Assembly: GCF_032108445.1 (NCBI RefSeq)
Contig: NZ_CP134876.1
Coordinates: 5,394,001-5,458,000 of the forward strand
DNA length: 64,000 nucleotides
Source of the DNA: Micromonospora halotolerans
Lineage (GTDB): Bacteria > Actinomycetota > Actinomycetes > Mycobacteriales > Micromonosporaceae
Direction of reading: 5' to 3'
Every line of letters starts with the position of its first letter. Position 1 is the first letter of the stretch. Of the stretch, positions 45,048-58,896 are shown piece after piece. The translations under genes and the position numbers were made by a program. The notes beneath the pieces are model-generated. The model searched no databases. It had not been told where the DNA came from and saw only the letters and a list, made by a program, of their open reading frames with translations.

Positions 45048-45709
45048 CGGCCACCCGGATCGTCGTGGTCGACGACCAGGACGTCGTGCGTGCCGCCTTC
45101 GAGGTCCTGCTGGCGACCCAGCCCGACTTCACGGTCGTCGGCTCGGCCGCCGACGGCGGGCAGGCCGTGCGGATCTGCCGGCAGGTGCGCCCCGACGTGG
45201 TGCTCATGGACATCCGGATGCCGGGGATGGACGGCATCGAGGCCACCCGGCGGCTGCTCGCCGACCCGGAGCCGCCCCGGGTGCTGATGCTGACGACGTT
45301 CGACCTCGACGAGCACGTGTACGACGCGCTCGGCGCCGGGGCGAGCGGTTTCCTCCTGAAGGACGCGACCGCGGAGCGCCTGTTCGACGCCGTCCGGATC
45401 GTCGCCGCGGGGGGGGCGCTGCTCGCCCCGACGGTGACCCGGCGGCTCGTCGCCGAGTTCGCCCGGCTGCGGGTACGCCGCCGGGAACCGGACGCGGCGC
45501 TCCGCACGCTCACCTCCCGGGAGACCGAGGTGCTGCGGCTGATCGCCGAGGGACTGTCGAACCCGGAGATCGCCGCCCGGCTGGTCGTGGGGGAGGAGAC
45601 GGTGAAGTCCCACGTCAGCCGGGTGCTGGCCAAGCTCGGCCTGCGCGACCGCACCCAGGCCGTCGTCGTGGCGTACGAGTCCGGCCTGGTCGTCCCCGGG
45701 GACCGGTGA
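45044..45709 (+). CDS. NarL/LuxR-type response regulator
   Basis: A 221-residue response regulator. The receiver domain has the acidic pair Asp10-Asp11, phosphoacceptor Asp56 ([12 protein letters not shown]), Thr in LMLTTFD and Lys in [10 protein letters not shown]. The C-terminal LuxR-type HTH is [18 protein letters not shown] with [15 protein letters not shown]. It is encoded with the kinase in a GTGA overlap and probably activates or represses the divergent ABC exporter. It converges with the next gene 3 nt away. Confidence 0.94.
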
Positions 45710-45712
45710 CGG

Positions 45713-46762
45713 TCAGCGGGCGGCCAGGTGCTCGCGCACCCGTGGCGCGACCTCGGTGCCGAGCAGGCGGATGTTCTCCATGAGCACGGCGTGCGGCATG
45801 GGCCCCATGCCGTACTTCACGTCGAAGCGGGTGGCGTCGAGGGTGGTCATGGTCCGCGCGATGCGCGGGGCCACCGTGTCGGGCGAGCCCACGTAGAGCG
45901 AGCCGTACTCGACCTCGTGGTCGAAGTACGCGCGGGTGATCTCCGGGAAGCCCCGCTGCCGGCGGGCGTCCAGCATGAACGTCCGGTAGGTGGGCCAGTA
46001 CTCCTCCCGGGCCTGCTCGTCGGTCGCCGCGACGTGCCCGGGGGAGTGCACCCCGATCGGCAGCGGACCGTGGCCCGCCTGCTCGGTGGCCGCCCGGTAG
46101 AGCGTGGAGAGGCGGGCGAAGCGCGCCGGATTGCCGCCGATGATGGCGAGCATCAGTCCGAGGCCGTGCCGGGCGGCCCGCACGACCGAGGCCGGGTTCC
46201 CGCCGACGCCCACCCAGGTCGGCAACGCGCCGCCGGCCGTACGCGGATAGACCGGCAGCCCCGGCAGGGCCGCCCGGGTGGTTCCGGACCAGGTGACCGG
46301 CTCCTCCGCGCGCAGCCGCGCGAACAGCTCCAGCTTCTCCTCGAACAGCCGGTCGTAGTCGGCCAGGTCGAACCCGAACAGCGGGAACGACTCGGTGCTG
46401 GAGCCGCGGCCCAGGATCACCTCGGCCCGGCCGGCGGAGAGCGCGTCCAGGGTCGCGTACCGCTGGTAGACGCGCACCGGGTCGTCCGAGCTCAGCACCG
46501 TGACGGCGGACCCCAGCCGGATCCGGGTGGTACGGGCGGCGATCGCGGCCAGCACCAGGTCGGGCGCGGACAGCGGCATCTCCTCGATGTGGTGCTCGCC
46601 CAGCCCGAAGAAGTCGAGCCCCGACTCCTCCGCGAGCACCCCCTCCGCGACCAGTTCGCGGATGTTCTGCGGCTGGCTCAGGAGCCGGCCGTCCGCGCCC
46701 AGCGTCATCTCGCCGAAGCTGTCGACCCCGATGACCGCCGGCCGCCCGTCGCGCATCTCCAT
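45713..46762 (-). CDS. Luciferase-like monooxygenase (LLM) family flavoenzyme 1
   Basis: A 349-residue LLM-fold protein using FMN or F420. Conserved stretches are VDSFGEMTLGADGRLL, GLDFFGLGEHHIEE, RIRLGSAVTVLSSDDPVRV, AEVILGRGSSTESFPLFG and GVHSPGHVAATDEQARE. It is a clear paralogue of the protein at 47567-48613, with the same motifs in the same order. Substrate unknown. ATG 46762 is chosen; GTG 46768 and ATG 46756 are alternatives without a decisive ribosome site. It diverges from the reductase/LLM operon across an interlocked pair of promoters and operators. Confidence 0.88.
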   Translation of the reverse strand: MEMRDGRPAVIGVDSFGEMTLGADGRLLSQPQNIRELVAEGVLAEESGLDFFGLGEHHIEEMPLSAPDLVLAAIAARTTRIRLGSAVTVLSSDDPVRVYQRYATLDALSAGRAEVILGRGSSTESFPLFGFDLADYDRLFEEKLELFARLRAEEPVTWSGTTRAALPGLPVYPRTAGGALPTWVGVGGNPASVVRAARHGLGLMLAIIGGNPARFARLSTLYRAATEQAGHGPLPIGVHSPGHVAATDEQAREEYWPTYRTFMLDARRQRGFPEITRAYFDHEVEYGSLYVGSPDTVAPRIARTMTTLDATRFDVKYGMGPMPHAVLMENIRLLGTEVAPRVREHLAAR

Positions 46763-46799
46763 CGTCACCACGCCCCCGAGACCGTGTGATCGAGATTTC

Positions 46800-46840
46800 C
46801 TTGACCAGTCAAGCATAGGAGATATGTTTGACCGGTCAAG
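46800..46840. promoter_or_regulatory. Interlocked divergent promoters with two CTTGACC palindromes
   Basis: Operator 1 is CTTGACCAGTCAAG (46800-46813). Operator 2 centres on TTGACCGGTCAA (46828-46839), a perfect palindrome. Plus strand: -35 TTGACC (46801-46806), 16-nt spacer, -10 TATGTT (46823-46828). Minus strand: -35 TTGACC (46839-46834), 16-nt spacer, -10 TATGCT (46817-46812). Each operator thus covers one promoter's -35 and the other's -10/+1 area. The MarR protein at 48690 is the likely ligand, because similar sites lie at its own gene. Confidence 0.75.
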
Positions 46841-46856
46841 GAAATGAGGTGCAGGT

Positions 46857-47570
46857 ATGCGTGACGACGATCTCGCCGCGGCGGGCGTCGCCCCGGCAGC
46901 GACGACGTTGTCGTCCCGGCCGCGGGTGGCCGTGCTCGGCGCCGGGCACACCGGACCGGTGATCGCCCGGGTGGCGATGGCCGCCGGGTACCCGGTGACG
47001 ATCGCGGCCTCCGGGGACCCTGCGAACATCGCCCTGATCACCGATGTGCTGGCTCCCGGCGCCGAGGCGCGCTGGGCGGCCGACGCCGTCGCGGACGCCG
47101 GGATCGTCGTGCTGGCCATACCGCTGCACCGGTTCCCGGACCTCGATCCCGCCCTGCTCGCCGGCCGGCTCGTCGTCGACACGATGAACTACTGGCCGCC
47201 CGTCGACGGCGTCCAGGAGATGTTCGACGACCCGGCGTACGGCAGCAGCGAGATCGTCCAGCGGCGGCTCGCCCGGTCGAGGGTCGTGAAGACCTTGAAC
47301 CACATCGGCTACCACGAGCTCGAGGACGACCGCCGCCCGCCCGGAGCACCGGACCGCCGCGCGCTCGGCGTCGCCGGGGACGACCCCGCCGCCGTGCGGA
47401 CCGTGGCCGACCTCATCGAACGCATCGGCTACGACGCCGTCCCGCTGGACGGCCTGCGCGTCGGCCGCCTGCTCCAACCCGGCGGCCCGGTCTTCGGCGT
47501 GTCCCTGGGCCGGACCGAGTTCACGCGGGCGCTCGCCCGCACCGACCACACAGACAGAGGCTCATCGTGA
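46857..47570 (+). CDS. F420-dependent NADP reductase-like (NADP oxidoreductase) protein
   Basis: A 237-residue Rossmann protein with RVAVLGAGHTGPVIARVA, GIVVLAIPLHRF, VVDTMNYWPP and VVKTLNHIGYHELED, the pattern of the F420-dependent NADP reductase family. Such proteins move hydride between NADPH and F420, or act as dinucleotide-binding reductases on other substrates. ATG 46857 follows GAGGTG. The gene overlaps the LLM 2 gene by 4 nt; it could supply reduced cofactor to the two LLM enzymes. Cofactor preference cannot be confirmed by reading. Confidence 0.82.
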   Translation: MRDDDLAAAGVAPAATTLSSRPRVAVLGAGHTGPVIARVAMAAGYPVTIAASGDPANIALITDVLAPGAEARWAADAVADAGIVVLAIPLHRFPDLDPALLAGRLVVDTMNYWPPVDGVQEMFDDPAYGSSEIVQRRLARSRVVKTLNHIGYHELEDDRRPPGAPDRRALGVAGDDPAAVRTVADLIERIGYDAVPLDGLRVGRLLQPGGPVFGVSLGRTEFTRALARTDHTDRGSS

Positions 47571-48613
47571 CCACAGCGCCCGCCTTTCCCCTCGTGCTCG
47601 GCCTGGACACCTTCGGCGACGTCACCCACGACGCCGACGACCGGCCGCTCTCGCACGCCCGCACCATCCGCGACATCGTCGAGCAGGGCGTCCTCGCGGA
47701 CCAGGTCGGCGTGGACTTCTTCGGCATCGGCGAGCACCACACCGACGACTTCCCGCTGTCCGCCGCCGACGTGGTGCTGGGCGCGATCGCCGCCCGCACC
47801 AGCCGGATCCGGCTCGGCTCGGCGGTCACGGTGCTCAGCTCCGACGACCCGGTACGGGTCTTCCAGCGCTACTCCACCCTCGACGCGGTCTCCGGCGGAC
47901 GGGCCGAGGTGATCCTCGGCCGCGGGTCCAGCATCGACTCGTTCCCGCTGTTCGGCTACGACCTGGCCGACTACGAGCAGCTCTTCGAGGAGAAGGCGCA
48001 GCTCTTCGCCGAGCTGCGCAAGGGTGGACCGGTGACCTGGAAGGGCACCATGCGGGCGGCGCTGCACGAGCAGGACGTCGTGCCGCACACCGAATCCGGA
48101 CCCTTCCCGGCCTGGATCGGCGTGGGCGGCAACCCGCAGTCGGTGATCCGGGCCGCCCGGTACGACTACGGCCTGATGCTCGCGATCATCGGCGGGTCGC
48201 CGGCCCGCTTCGCGCCCTTCTCCCGGCTGTTCCACCAGGCGCTCACGCAGCTCGGCAAGGATCCCCTGCCGATCGGCGTGCACTCGCCCGGGCACGTCGC
48301 CGCGACCGACGAGCAGGCCCGGGAGGAGTTCTTCCCCCGCTACCAGGAGATGATCCGCCGGGTGGCTCGGACCCGCGGCTTCGCCGTACCGACCCGGGAG
48401 TCCTTCCTGCGCGAGGTCGGGCCGCACGGCGCGCTGTACGTGGGGTCGCCCGAGACCGTCGCCCGGAAGATCGCCGCGAACCTCGTCGTGCTCGGCGCGA
48501 ACCGCTTCGAGATGAAGTACGGCATGGGTGGGCTGTCGCACGAGGCCCTGATGACCGGCATCGAGCTCTACGGCACGCGGGTCGTCCCGCGCGTCCGGGA
48601 GCTGCTGAGCTGA
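47567..48613 (+). CDS. Luciferase-like monooxygenase (LLM) family flavoenzyme 2
   Basis: A 348-residue LLM protein paralogous to the one at 45713-46762. Shared blocks include GVDFFGIGEHHTDDFPLS, RIRLGSAVTVLSSDDPVRV, AEVILGRGSSIDSFPLFGYD and GVHSPGHVAATDEQARE. The subgroup resembles the uncharacterised LLM oxidoreductases often annotated near reductases. Likely role is oxygenation or reduction of a small xenobiotic or endogenous electrophile using FMNH2 or F420H2. The ATG/GTG start overlaps the reductase stop in GTGA. It ends at a perfect 15-bp hairpin. Confidence 0.88.
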   Translation: MTTAPAFPLVLGLDTFGDVTHDADDRPLSHARTIRDIVEQGVLADQVGVDFFGIGEHHTDDFPLSAADVVLGAIAARTSRIRLGSAVTVLSSDDPVRVFQRYSTLDAVSGGRAEVILGRGSSIDSFPLFGYDLADYEQLFEEKAQLFAELRKGGPVTWKGTMRAALHEQDVVPHTESGPFPAWIGVGGNPQSVIRAARYDYGLMLAIIGGSPARFAPFSRLFHQALTQLGKDPLPIGVHSPGHVAATDEQAREEFFPRYQEMIRRVARTRGFAVPTRESFLREVGPHGALYVGSPETVARKIAANLVVLGANRFEMKYGMGGLSHEALMTGIELYGTRVVPRVRELLS

Positions 48614-48620
48614 CCAACGC

Positions 48621-48659
48621 CCGGTCCGGCCGCCCGCGTCCGGTGGGCGGCCGGACCGG
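48621..48659. terminator. Perfect 15-bp hairpin between LLM 2 and MarR genes
   Basis: CCGGTCCGGCCGCCC (48621-48635) pairs with GGGCGGCCGGACCGG (48645-48659) around a 9-nt loop, between two convergent stops. Confidence 0.8.
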
Positions 48660-48689
48660 TCCGGGGCGCCGTGGTGGCCGCCCGTGGGC

Positions 48690-49154
48690 TCAGTCGGCGG
48701 TCCCGACGCGCCGGAACGCGCGGGCCAGTTGGACGAGGTCGATGCCCTCGAAGTGGTCGAGGAACCGCCGCCGCACGCTGGCCAGGTGACTCGGCCAGGA
48801 CTCCTGGAGCCGGGCGAGACCGGCATCGGTGAGCACGGCGTTCCACCCGCGCGCGTCCTCGGCGCACTTGACCCGCTCGACCAGGCCCTGCGTCTCCAGC
48901 CGGCCGATGGTGCGGGTCATCCCGCTCAGGGAGAGCTGGCACGCCGCGGCGAGGTCGCTCATCCGCATCCGCCGGTCGTGCGCCTCGGAGAGGTGCATGA
49001 GCGCCGTGTACTCGGTGAGGGGCAGCTGGCGGTCGCCGACCATGTCGGCGTCGATGGCGCGGGGCAGCACGTGCATGATCCGGCCCAGCGAGCGGACCAG
49101 CGCCTCCTCCTCGGCGTCGAGGGGGCGCGGGGACTTCGGCGCGGCGGCGGACAT
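48690..49154 (-). CDS. MarR family transcriptional regulator
   Basis: A 154-residue winged-helix repressor: LPLTEYTALMHLSEAHDRRM, MSDLAAACQLSLSGMTRTIGRLE (recognition helix) and wing-type VERVKCAEDARGWNAVLTDAG. MarR proteins often sense phenols, quinones or oxidants. The start is ATG 49154, 7 nt after TAGGAT (49167-49162), although the frame runs to 49190. It is divergent from the FMN reductase gene, and the shared interval contains CTTGACC-type sites like those at 46.8 kb, so one regulon is likely. Confidence 0.9.
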   Translation of the reverse strand: MSAAAPKSPRPLDAEEEALVRSLGRIMHVLPRAIDADMVGDRQLPLTEYTALMHLSEAHDRRMRMSDLAAACQLSLSGMTRTIGRLETQGLVERVKCAEDARGWNAVLTDAGLARLQESWPSHLASVRRRFLDHFEGIDLVQLARAFRRVGTAD

Positions 49155-49161
49155 GCCCCCA

Positions 49162-49270
49162 ATCCTACTTGCTTGACCGAGCAATGACATCTCGGCACGG
49201 TGACCACCGCCACGGGCCCAGAGATTGCTTGACGAAGCAACAAACGGCTAGCTTACCTTGACCAGGCAAG
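49162..49270. promoter_or_regulatory. MarR/FMN-reductase divergent promoter region with three operator-like sites
   Basis: Site A TTGCTTGACCGAGCAA (49169-49184) lies beside the MarR -10 TAGGAT (49167-49162). Site B TTGCTTGACGAAGCAA (49225-49240) covers the reductase -35 TTGACG (49229-49234). Site C CTTGACCAGGCAAG (49257-49270) overlaps the -10 TTACCT (49253-49258) and start region. All share CTTGAC and AAG-type half sites with the palindromes at 46800-46840. Confidence 0.7.
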
Positions 49271-49292
49271 TACTTTGGAAGGGCTTCCCGAC

Positions 49293-49853
49293 ATGACCAG
49301 GATCGGAATCATCCTCGGCAGCACCCGCCCGGGTCGCAACGGCGAGGCGGTCGCCCGCTGGGTGTTCGACGTCGCCAAGCAGCGCGGAGACGCGGAGTTC
49401 GAGCTCATCGACCTGCTCGACCACCAGCTGCCGCACCTGGACGAGGCGTACCCGCCGGCGATGGGCCAGTACACCCAGCCGCACACGCTGCGCTGGGCCA
49501 GCACCATCGCGTCGTTCGACGGGTTCGTGATGGTCACCCCGGAGTACAACCACTCCACCTCCGGCGCCCTGAAGAACGCCATCGACTTCCTCTACGCCGA
49601 GTGGAACAACAAGGCCGTCGGGTTCGTCAGCTACGGCTCCGCGGGCGGCACCCGGGCCGTGGAGCACCTGCGGCTGATCGCCGGCGAGCTGCAGATGGCC
49701 GACGTGCGGTCCCAGGTGGCGCTGTCGCTGTTCACCGACTTCGAGAACTTCAGCGTCTTCAAGCCCAGCCAGTTCCAGCGCGACGCGCTCACCACCACCC
49801 TCGACCAGGTCGTCGCCTGGAGCACGGCGCTCGCCCCGCTGCGCAATCGCTGA
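49293..49853 (+). CDS. NAD(P)H-dependent FMN reductase
   Basis: A 186-residue flavodoxin-like reductase of the NADPH-dependent FMN reductase family. The FMN phosphate loop is ILGSTRPGRNGEAVARW; VTPEYNHSTSGALKNAIDFL and GFVSYGSAGGTRAVEHLR are characteristic. It can deliver reduced flavin or act as a quinone/azo reductase. This makes it a natural partner for the two LLM proteins in the same putative MarR regulon. ATG 49293 follows GGAAGG; ends at a perfect 15-bp hairpin. Confidence 0.9.
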   Translation: MTRIGIILGSTRPGRNGEAVARWVFDVAKQRGDAEFELIDLLDHQLPHLDEAYPPAMGQYTQPHTLRWASTIASFDGFVMVTPEYNHSTSGALKNAIDFLYAEWNNKAVGFVSYGSAGGTRAVEHLRLIAGELQMADVRSQVALSLFTDFENFSVFKPSQFQRDALTTTLDQVVAWSTALAPLRNR

Positions 49854-58789: not shown

Positions 58790-58896
58790 AATGTGTCTGA
58801 GGGAGTGTGCGACAGCCCGACGGGCCTCGTCAACAGGTCCACCCCGGCCGATTTGTGGTATCAATGCCGGCCGAGGCTCAGGAGGGAAGGACGGAC

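Follow-up and report, generated by a model that had tools for sequence, protein, structure and literature searches.

An imperfect dyad of 51 bp, lying between a gene for a luciferase-like monooxygenase (LLM1) and a divergent operon for a reductase-like protein and a second such monooxygenase (LLM2), very probably serves as a joint promoter-operator, at which dimers of the MarR-family regulator MarR1, one per palindrome, would repress LLM1 and reductase–LLM2 together. Our best reading of the sequence is that the dyad would act as a common off-switch for both directions and not as a toggle. The source organism is a soil actinomycete of the genus Micromonospora, to which the relatives of highest identity (73–96%) belong, and the DNA analyzed, a stretch of 64 kb called the window below, belongs to its genome (G000), a single contig of 6.96 Mb. 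The genes around the dyad are as follows.

45713..46762, − strand: LLM1, luciferase-like monooxygenase (Pfam PF00296; NCBIfam TIGR03858, 464.3 bits, cut-off 462.25)
46857..47570, + strand: reductase-like gene with an F420-dependent NADP oxidoreductase domain (PF03807, residues 23–112)
47567..48613, + strand: LLM2, second luciferase-like monooxygenase (TIGR03858, 474.6 bits), overlapping the reductase stop
48690..49154, − strand: MarR1, MarR-family regulator, convergent with LLM2 and the proposed binder of both operators
49293..49853, + strand: NADPH-dependent FMN reductase, divergent from MarR1 (PF03358, E = 1.6e-42)

LLM2 is 63% identical to LLM1. The start of LLM1 is the ATG at 46762 or lies a few codons upstream (ATG at 46768, GTG at 46780), and residues 1 to about 19 of the reductase form a leader outside its PF03807 domain. 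MarR1 scored above the curated cut-offs of the MarR winged-helix models (PF12802, 48.4 bits with a cut-off of 27; PF01047, 37.6 bits with a cut-off of 24.6). Its closest solved relatives are the SCO3205/AbsC group of Streptomyces MarR regulators, with 3zmd (E = 1.7e-20) and 3zpl (E = 3.4e-17) as the closest chains. Two of its cysteines, Cys72 adjoining the recognition helix (conserved in 70 of 81 sequences) and Cys97 in the wing (conserved in 68), are a possible thiol sensor. Between the convergent LLM2 and MarR1 genes lies a strong 17-pair hairpin (48621–48659, −46.6 kcal/mol, z = −3.68), perhaps a two-way terminator; it is without a T-run, and a terminator-like match was absent from the scan of 45600–49400.

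The letters at 46800–46840 bear out what the initial annotation had described there, namely, two palindromes 14 nt apart, the second of them perfect. The elements of the dyad are listed here.

46795..46845: imperfect dyad of 51 bp (23 + 5 + 23), enclosing both operators and both promoters
46800..46813: operator 1, CTTGACCAGTCAAG, 6 of 7 pairs matched, with a C/A mismatch at the centre
46801..46828, + strand: predicted rightward promoter TTGACC-N16-TATGTT for the reductase/LLM2 operon (−35 at 46801–46806, −10 at 46823–46828)
46812..46839, − strand: predicted leftward promoter TTGACC-N16-TATGCT for LLM1 (−35 at 46839–46834, −10 at 46817–46812)
46827..46840: operator 2, TTTGACCGGTCAAG, with a perfect core, TTGACCGGTCAA, at 46828–46839

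The symmetry is wider than previously described, as the arms 46795–46817 and 46823–46845 match at 21 of 23 positions. Operator 1 and the operator 2 core are separated by the 14 nt at 46814–46827, with a centre-to-centre distance of 27 bp. Operator 1 contains the rightward −35, shares 2 nt with the leftward −10, and spans the expected leftward +1 (~46805). Similarly, the operator 2 core contains the leftward −35, shares 1 nt with the rightward −10, and spans the expected rightward +1 (~46835), about 30 bp from the leftward one. The core elements of the opposed promoters (46801–46828 on the + strand and 46812–46839 on the − strand) overlap, and by sequence both of the like operators span core elements of both promoters. 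These coordinates agree with the earlier claim that each palindrome holds the TTGACC −35 of one promoter and overlaps the −10/+1 of the other, with two 16-nt spacers.

How might such an element work? The dyad would drive LLM1 leftward and reductase–LLM2 rightward, and a MarR1 dimer would sit at each of the two palindromes, presumably as a repressor rather than an activator. Since each palindrome combines the −35 of one promoter with the −10/+1 of the other, a dimer at either would block both, sterically barring RNA polymerase from both promoters, and more so with both palindromes occupied. SCO3205 has two operators between divergent genes, with 24-bp footprints and KD values of 1.3 and 2.4 nM (excerpt of PMC3737563). 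By analogy, footprints of this size, one centred on each palindrome, would extend over 46795–46818 and 46822–46845, which together make up the dyad without a collision. The proposal that a repressor at either site would span elements of both promoters thus fits the geometry and the SCO3205 footprints.

A consensus promoter scan of 45600–49400 returned this divergent pair alone (shuffle mean 0.1). The pattern TTGACN-N15..18-TANNNT has three matches in the 64-kb window, two of which are this pair; 60 first-order Markov resamples gave a mean of 0.22 matches, and none contained an overlapping plus/minus pair. A palindrome with TTGAC in one half has TTGAC on both strands, so that two TTGAC palindromes 27 bp apart automatically provide both −35 boxes and two equal spacers. 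The independent part of the promoter evidence is the two −10 boxes. Loose matches to TTGACCNGTCAA (at most two mismatches) were not enriched across the 64-kb window (8 matches vs. 6.3 expected); exactness and clustering, rather than the number of loose palindromes, set these sites apart.

The initial annotation had named the MarR protein encoded at 48690–49154 as the one to try for binding. Its role as the likely regulator is supported by a motif common to the dyad and the promoter region of MarR1 itself, the MarR1/FMN-reductase intergenic region (49155–49292), where three sites of this type are predicted from motif matches.

49172..49185: MarR1-type site CTTGACCGAGCAAT
49228..49241: MarR1-type site CTTGACGAAGCAAC
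49257..49270: MarR1-type site CTTGACCAGGCAAG

Among 80 loci with a MarR1 relative, 56 have an FMN reductase divergent from MarR1 at a distance of at most 500 bp, and at least one MarR1-type site was found in 51 of 52 MarR1/FMN-reductase intergenic regions of other genomes. We also searched 52 intergenic regions, with the window and its four nearest relatives left out, for any inverted repeat with 4-base arms, with no motif given. The commonest was CTTG-N6-CAAG (35 of 52 regions; shuffled maximum 4 in 20 runs), which occurs in the 64-kb window at 46800 and 49257 only. The shorter TTG-N6-CAA occurs there six times: in both operators, in the three MarR1-promoter sites, and at 58853.

Furthermore, when the 64-kb window was scanned with a matrix built from 83 sites, the five sites scored 22.4–28.5 bits, operator 1 ranking highest and operator 2 third, and the next independent place scored 1.5 bits, two overlapping registers at 10.3 and 10.6 being left out of the ranking. 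The matrix has only partial independence, since the consensus used to select its training sites (9-of-10 match) was drawn up with the window already in view; consequently, the motif-free search that yielded CTTG-N6-CAAG serves as the unbiased check. The dyad sites are symmetric, with TTGAC in both halves, whereas most MarR1-promoter sites are skewed (TTGAC/GCAA), and the affinity may therefore differ.

The matrix scan covered the 64-kb window, and placement across genomes was established by pattern searches. Exact CTTGACNNNNCAAG occurred at 25 places in nine Micromonospora genomes (3 in G000 and 22 in eight relatives), of which 22 lie in promoters of LLM or FMN-reductase operons: the dyad element accounts for 12, the MarR1/FMN-reductase region for 7, and the sequences before other LLM genes adjoining MarR1 or an FMN reductase for 3 (G020 C60:43204, G048 5507683, and G094 C497:6354). 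Three places are elsewhere (G000 4854393, G048 2463396, and G020 C56:17451). The motif was not in excess over reversed controls, either as exact strand-hits in the eight genomes (29 vs. 42) or at no more than one mismatch in G000 (57 vs. 122), so the argument rests on its placement.

Two TTGAYCNGTCAA palindromes 8–20 bp apart were found at seven places in 354 family genomes, and six of these are LLM-reductase promoters (five dyad elements and one related operon in G030). Near the seventh, in G220 (L211), tblastn found no match to any of the five proteins, and this place looks unrelated. This rigid pattern misses G014 and G113, where the sites are off by a base. Across the genus, 63 of 160 genomes have MarR1, compared with all ten of those with such sites at an LLM-reductase promoter; in G048, G020, G094, and G030, it is encoded far away from the element. 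We rejected a general "LLM promoter" motif, as 20 of 21 other LLM loci (L139–L159) had no site at 9/10 or better. The LLM-reductase operon of G030 is more distant; its two CTTGACCGGTCAAK sites (L206:9016–9054) are 25 bp apart, and MarR1 is unlinked.

Could the operators belong to another regulator? It is possible, though unlikely, that they are bound by another MarR-family protein, either unlinked or, formerly, a second regulator called MarR2, and not by MarR1. G000 is rich in MarR-type genes (11 matches), and SCO3205 binds a motif, TTnAAnnnTCAA, similar to the dyad sites, TTGACCRGTCAA (PMC3737563, excerpt). The dyad sites are not of the SCO3205 form, having C at the fifth base (TTGAC); the TTnA start and the TCAA end agree. 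Where SCO3205 contacts bases through Arg72, Ser73, and His77, MarR1 has Leu, Ser, and Arg, as read from the alignment, and the target of SCO3205 also differs, being sco3204, an extradiol-dioxygenase-like gene (same excerpt).

Two genomes, G094 and G020, carry MarR2, 33% identical to MarR1, as the first gene of the rightward operon (L161:4255–4770 and L162:2729–3244). In these genomes, TTGACGCGTCAA and TTGATGCGTCAA stand in place of the left operator, the MarR2 operons having their own pair of TTGAYGCGTCAA sites where operator 1 would be, and the right operator is still CTTGACCAGTCAAG; the leftward −10 is retained although the flanking operator has changed. MarR2 in the operon, together with the replaced left operator, indicates that another MarR protein can control the promoter. 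Furthermore, the reductase leader of the window (46857–46910, about 19 residues) resembles the start of MarR2 at the DNA level. This likeness of the first codons suggests that one gene was built on the leader of the other, which may be a shared or captured translation start. The leader may be a relic of a lost MarR2, but on the unrooted nine-genome tree, acquisition of MarR2 by G094/G020 is an equally simple explanation, or a simpler one. On the other hand, the dyad motif is the motif of MarR1's own promoter region, MarR1 accompanies such sites in all ten genomes that have them at an LLM-reductase promoter, and a close MarR2 was not found in the genomes without an operon copy (best 46%, in G000). 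MarR1 is thus the regulator that we favor.

Is the leftward half of the dyad a working promoter? We compared the nine genomes with an LLM2 orthologue (62–65% identical to the LLM1 query; matches other than these orthologues and LLM1 itself were at most 59% identical). This gene-based set consists of the seven genomes found with the 41-bp pattern plus G094 and G020 and is therefore independent of the pattern. All nine genomes have the two palindromes and a rightward −10 (TANNNT). LLM1 is missing from five of them (L163–L167), though the promoter dyad stays; in G113 (L166), the reductase is missing as well. To the left of the element, G039, G014, and G146 still have sequence similar to the beginning of the LLM1 coding region, as read from the alignment, which favors a loss of LLM1 over a gain.

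The leftward −10 (TANNNT) is present in all four genomes with LLM1 (G000, G048, G094, and G020) and in one of the five without it, G045, which is of the same species as the window; the other four read CATGCT, CCTGCT, CCTGCT, and AATGCT. Although four of four against one of five is a small sample of related genomes, in which G014 and G146 are sisters, this pattern gives the strongest indication that LLM1 would be served by the leftward promoter. Both spacers are 16 nt in seven genomes and 15 nt in G094 and G020; because the two promoters have one spacer region in common, both spacers change with one indel. The description of a compact symmetric element thus stands in part: it is strengthened by the 51-bp dyad and by a leftward −10 kept with LLM1, but the leftward half is mostly lost in LLM1-less relatives, which confines the symmetry to certain lineages. 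Decay of the left −10 in genomes that have lost the left gene, with both operators retained, is a small natural experiment that separates promoter function from operator function.

We consider it quite improbable that the rightward promoter alone matters, the leftward one being a by-product of palindromic operators and LLM1 being read weakly or from elsewhere. A leftward TTGAC-N16 does arise free from two TTGAC palindromes at this distance, and both palindromes are kept in the five genomes without LLM1. However, the leftward −10, TATGCT, is not implied by the palindromes; across the genomes, it is found wherever LLM1 is, G094 and G020 included, and is lost in four of the five without LLM1. In addition, 45600–49400 is without any other promoter match.

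Could the regulator instead activate one direction while repressing the other, as a true switch? The initial annotation used the word "switch", and in E. coli, activation of a bidirectional promoter in one direction can come at a cost to the opposite one (excerpt of PMC12825309), but we regard this as very unlikely here. The operators span core elements both ways, in mirror symmetry, and a free upstream activator position is absent. The earlier notion of a switch "between" LLM1 and reductase/LLM2 therefore has to be revised, as the layout predicts that the two go off and on jointly, polymerase competition aside. The E. coli promoters described by Warman, Grainger, and co-workers share a −10, with 18, 10, and 23 bp as the most frequent distances between starts (PMC12825309, in part). 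Like them, the dyad is pseudo-symmetric DNA read both ways, at which polymerases on opposite strands would exclude each other; unlike the shared −10 type, it has two −10 boxes (46812–46817 and 46823–46828), 5 nt apart.

A joint off-switch has a precedent in Tn10 tetA/tetR, where tetO1 and tetO2 lie between overlapping divergent promoters and TetR represses both directions (excerpt of PMC11686294, citing Bertrand et al. 1983). Judging by its sequence, the dyad would likewise offer two operators to one proposed repressor within overlapping divergent promoters. This likeness is one of layout and not of a base-by-base comparison, the mirror-like placement of −35 against −10/+1 being that of the dyad. 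Unlike MarR1, TetR is a member of a different family and the product of one of the divergent units, whereas the divergent units of the window encode no regulator and the 3′ end of MarR1 lies 1.85 kb to the right; a regulator within a divergent unit does occur in G094 and G020, by way of MarR2. The predicted regulon of MarR1 may resemble that of RosR (Cg1324) of Corynebacterium glutamicum, which includes FMN reductases and monooxygenases. RosR is a MarR-type, autoregulated regulator of oxidative stress (PMC7764795, excerpt). A literature search for a MarR/LLM/FMN-reductase regulon in actinobacteria found none among the matches listed, and one for interlocked or overlapping divergent promoters found nothing useful among the matches listed; we make no wider claim. 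The control unit is clean, conserved, and of an already known kind.

Finally, it is scarcely conceivable that the palindromes arose by chance or serve a different purpose, for example as an mRNA hairpin: such sequences can fold in RNA, but the expected starts fall inside the palindromes, so neither transcript would carry a complete palindrome of its own, and a chance origin was rejected by the Markov resamples, the promoter scan, the rarity in 354 genomes, and the CTTG-N6-CAAG shared with the second promoter, to which may be added their retention in nine of nine genomes.

Beyond the joint promoter-operator itself, we entertain, somewhat doubtfully, the idea that the dyad is a self-complementary 51-bp unit whose operator bases do double duty and whose promoters are unable to evolve separately, and which survives gene loss and can be recoded to another MarR protein with the interlock intact. 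If this were true, the interlocked unit would be a natural test bed for swapping the shared regulator at a two-way promoter. More immediately, the analysis names a predicted regulator and regulon for TIGR03858 flavin-dependent monooxygenases of unknown substrate in Micromonospora. In the predicted regulon, one type of operator would govern the MarR regulator together with a flavin reductase and two monooxygenases, and whatever releases MarR1 would hint at the substrates of these enzymes.
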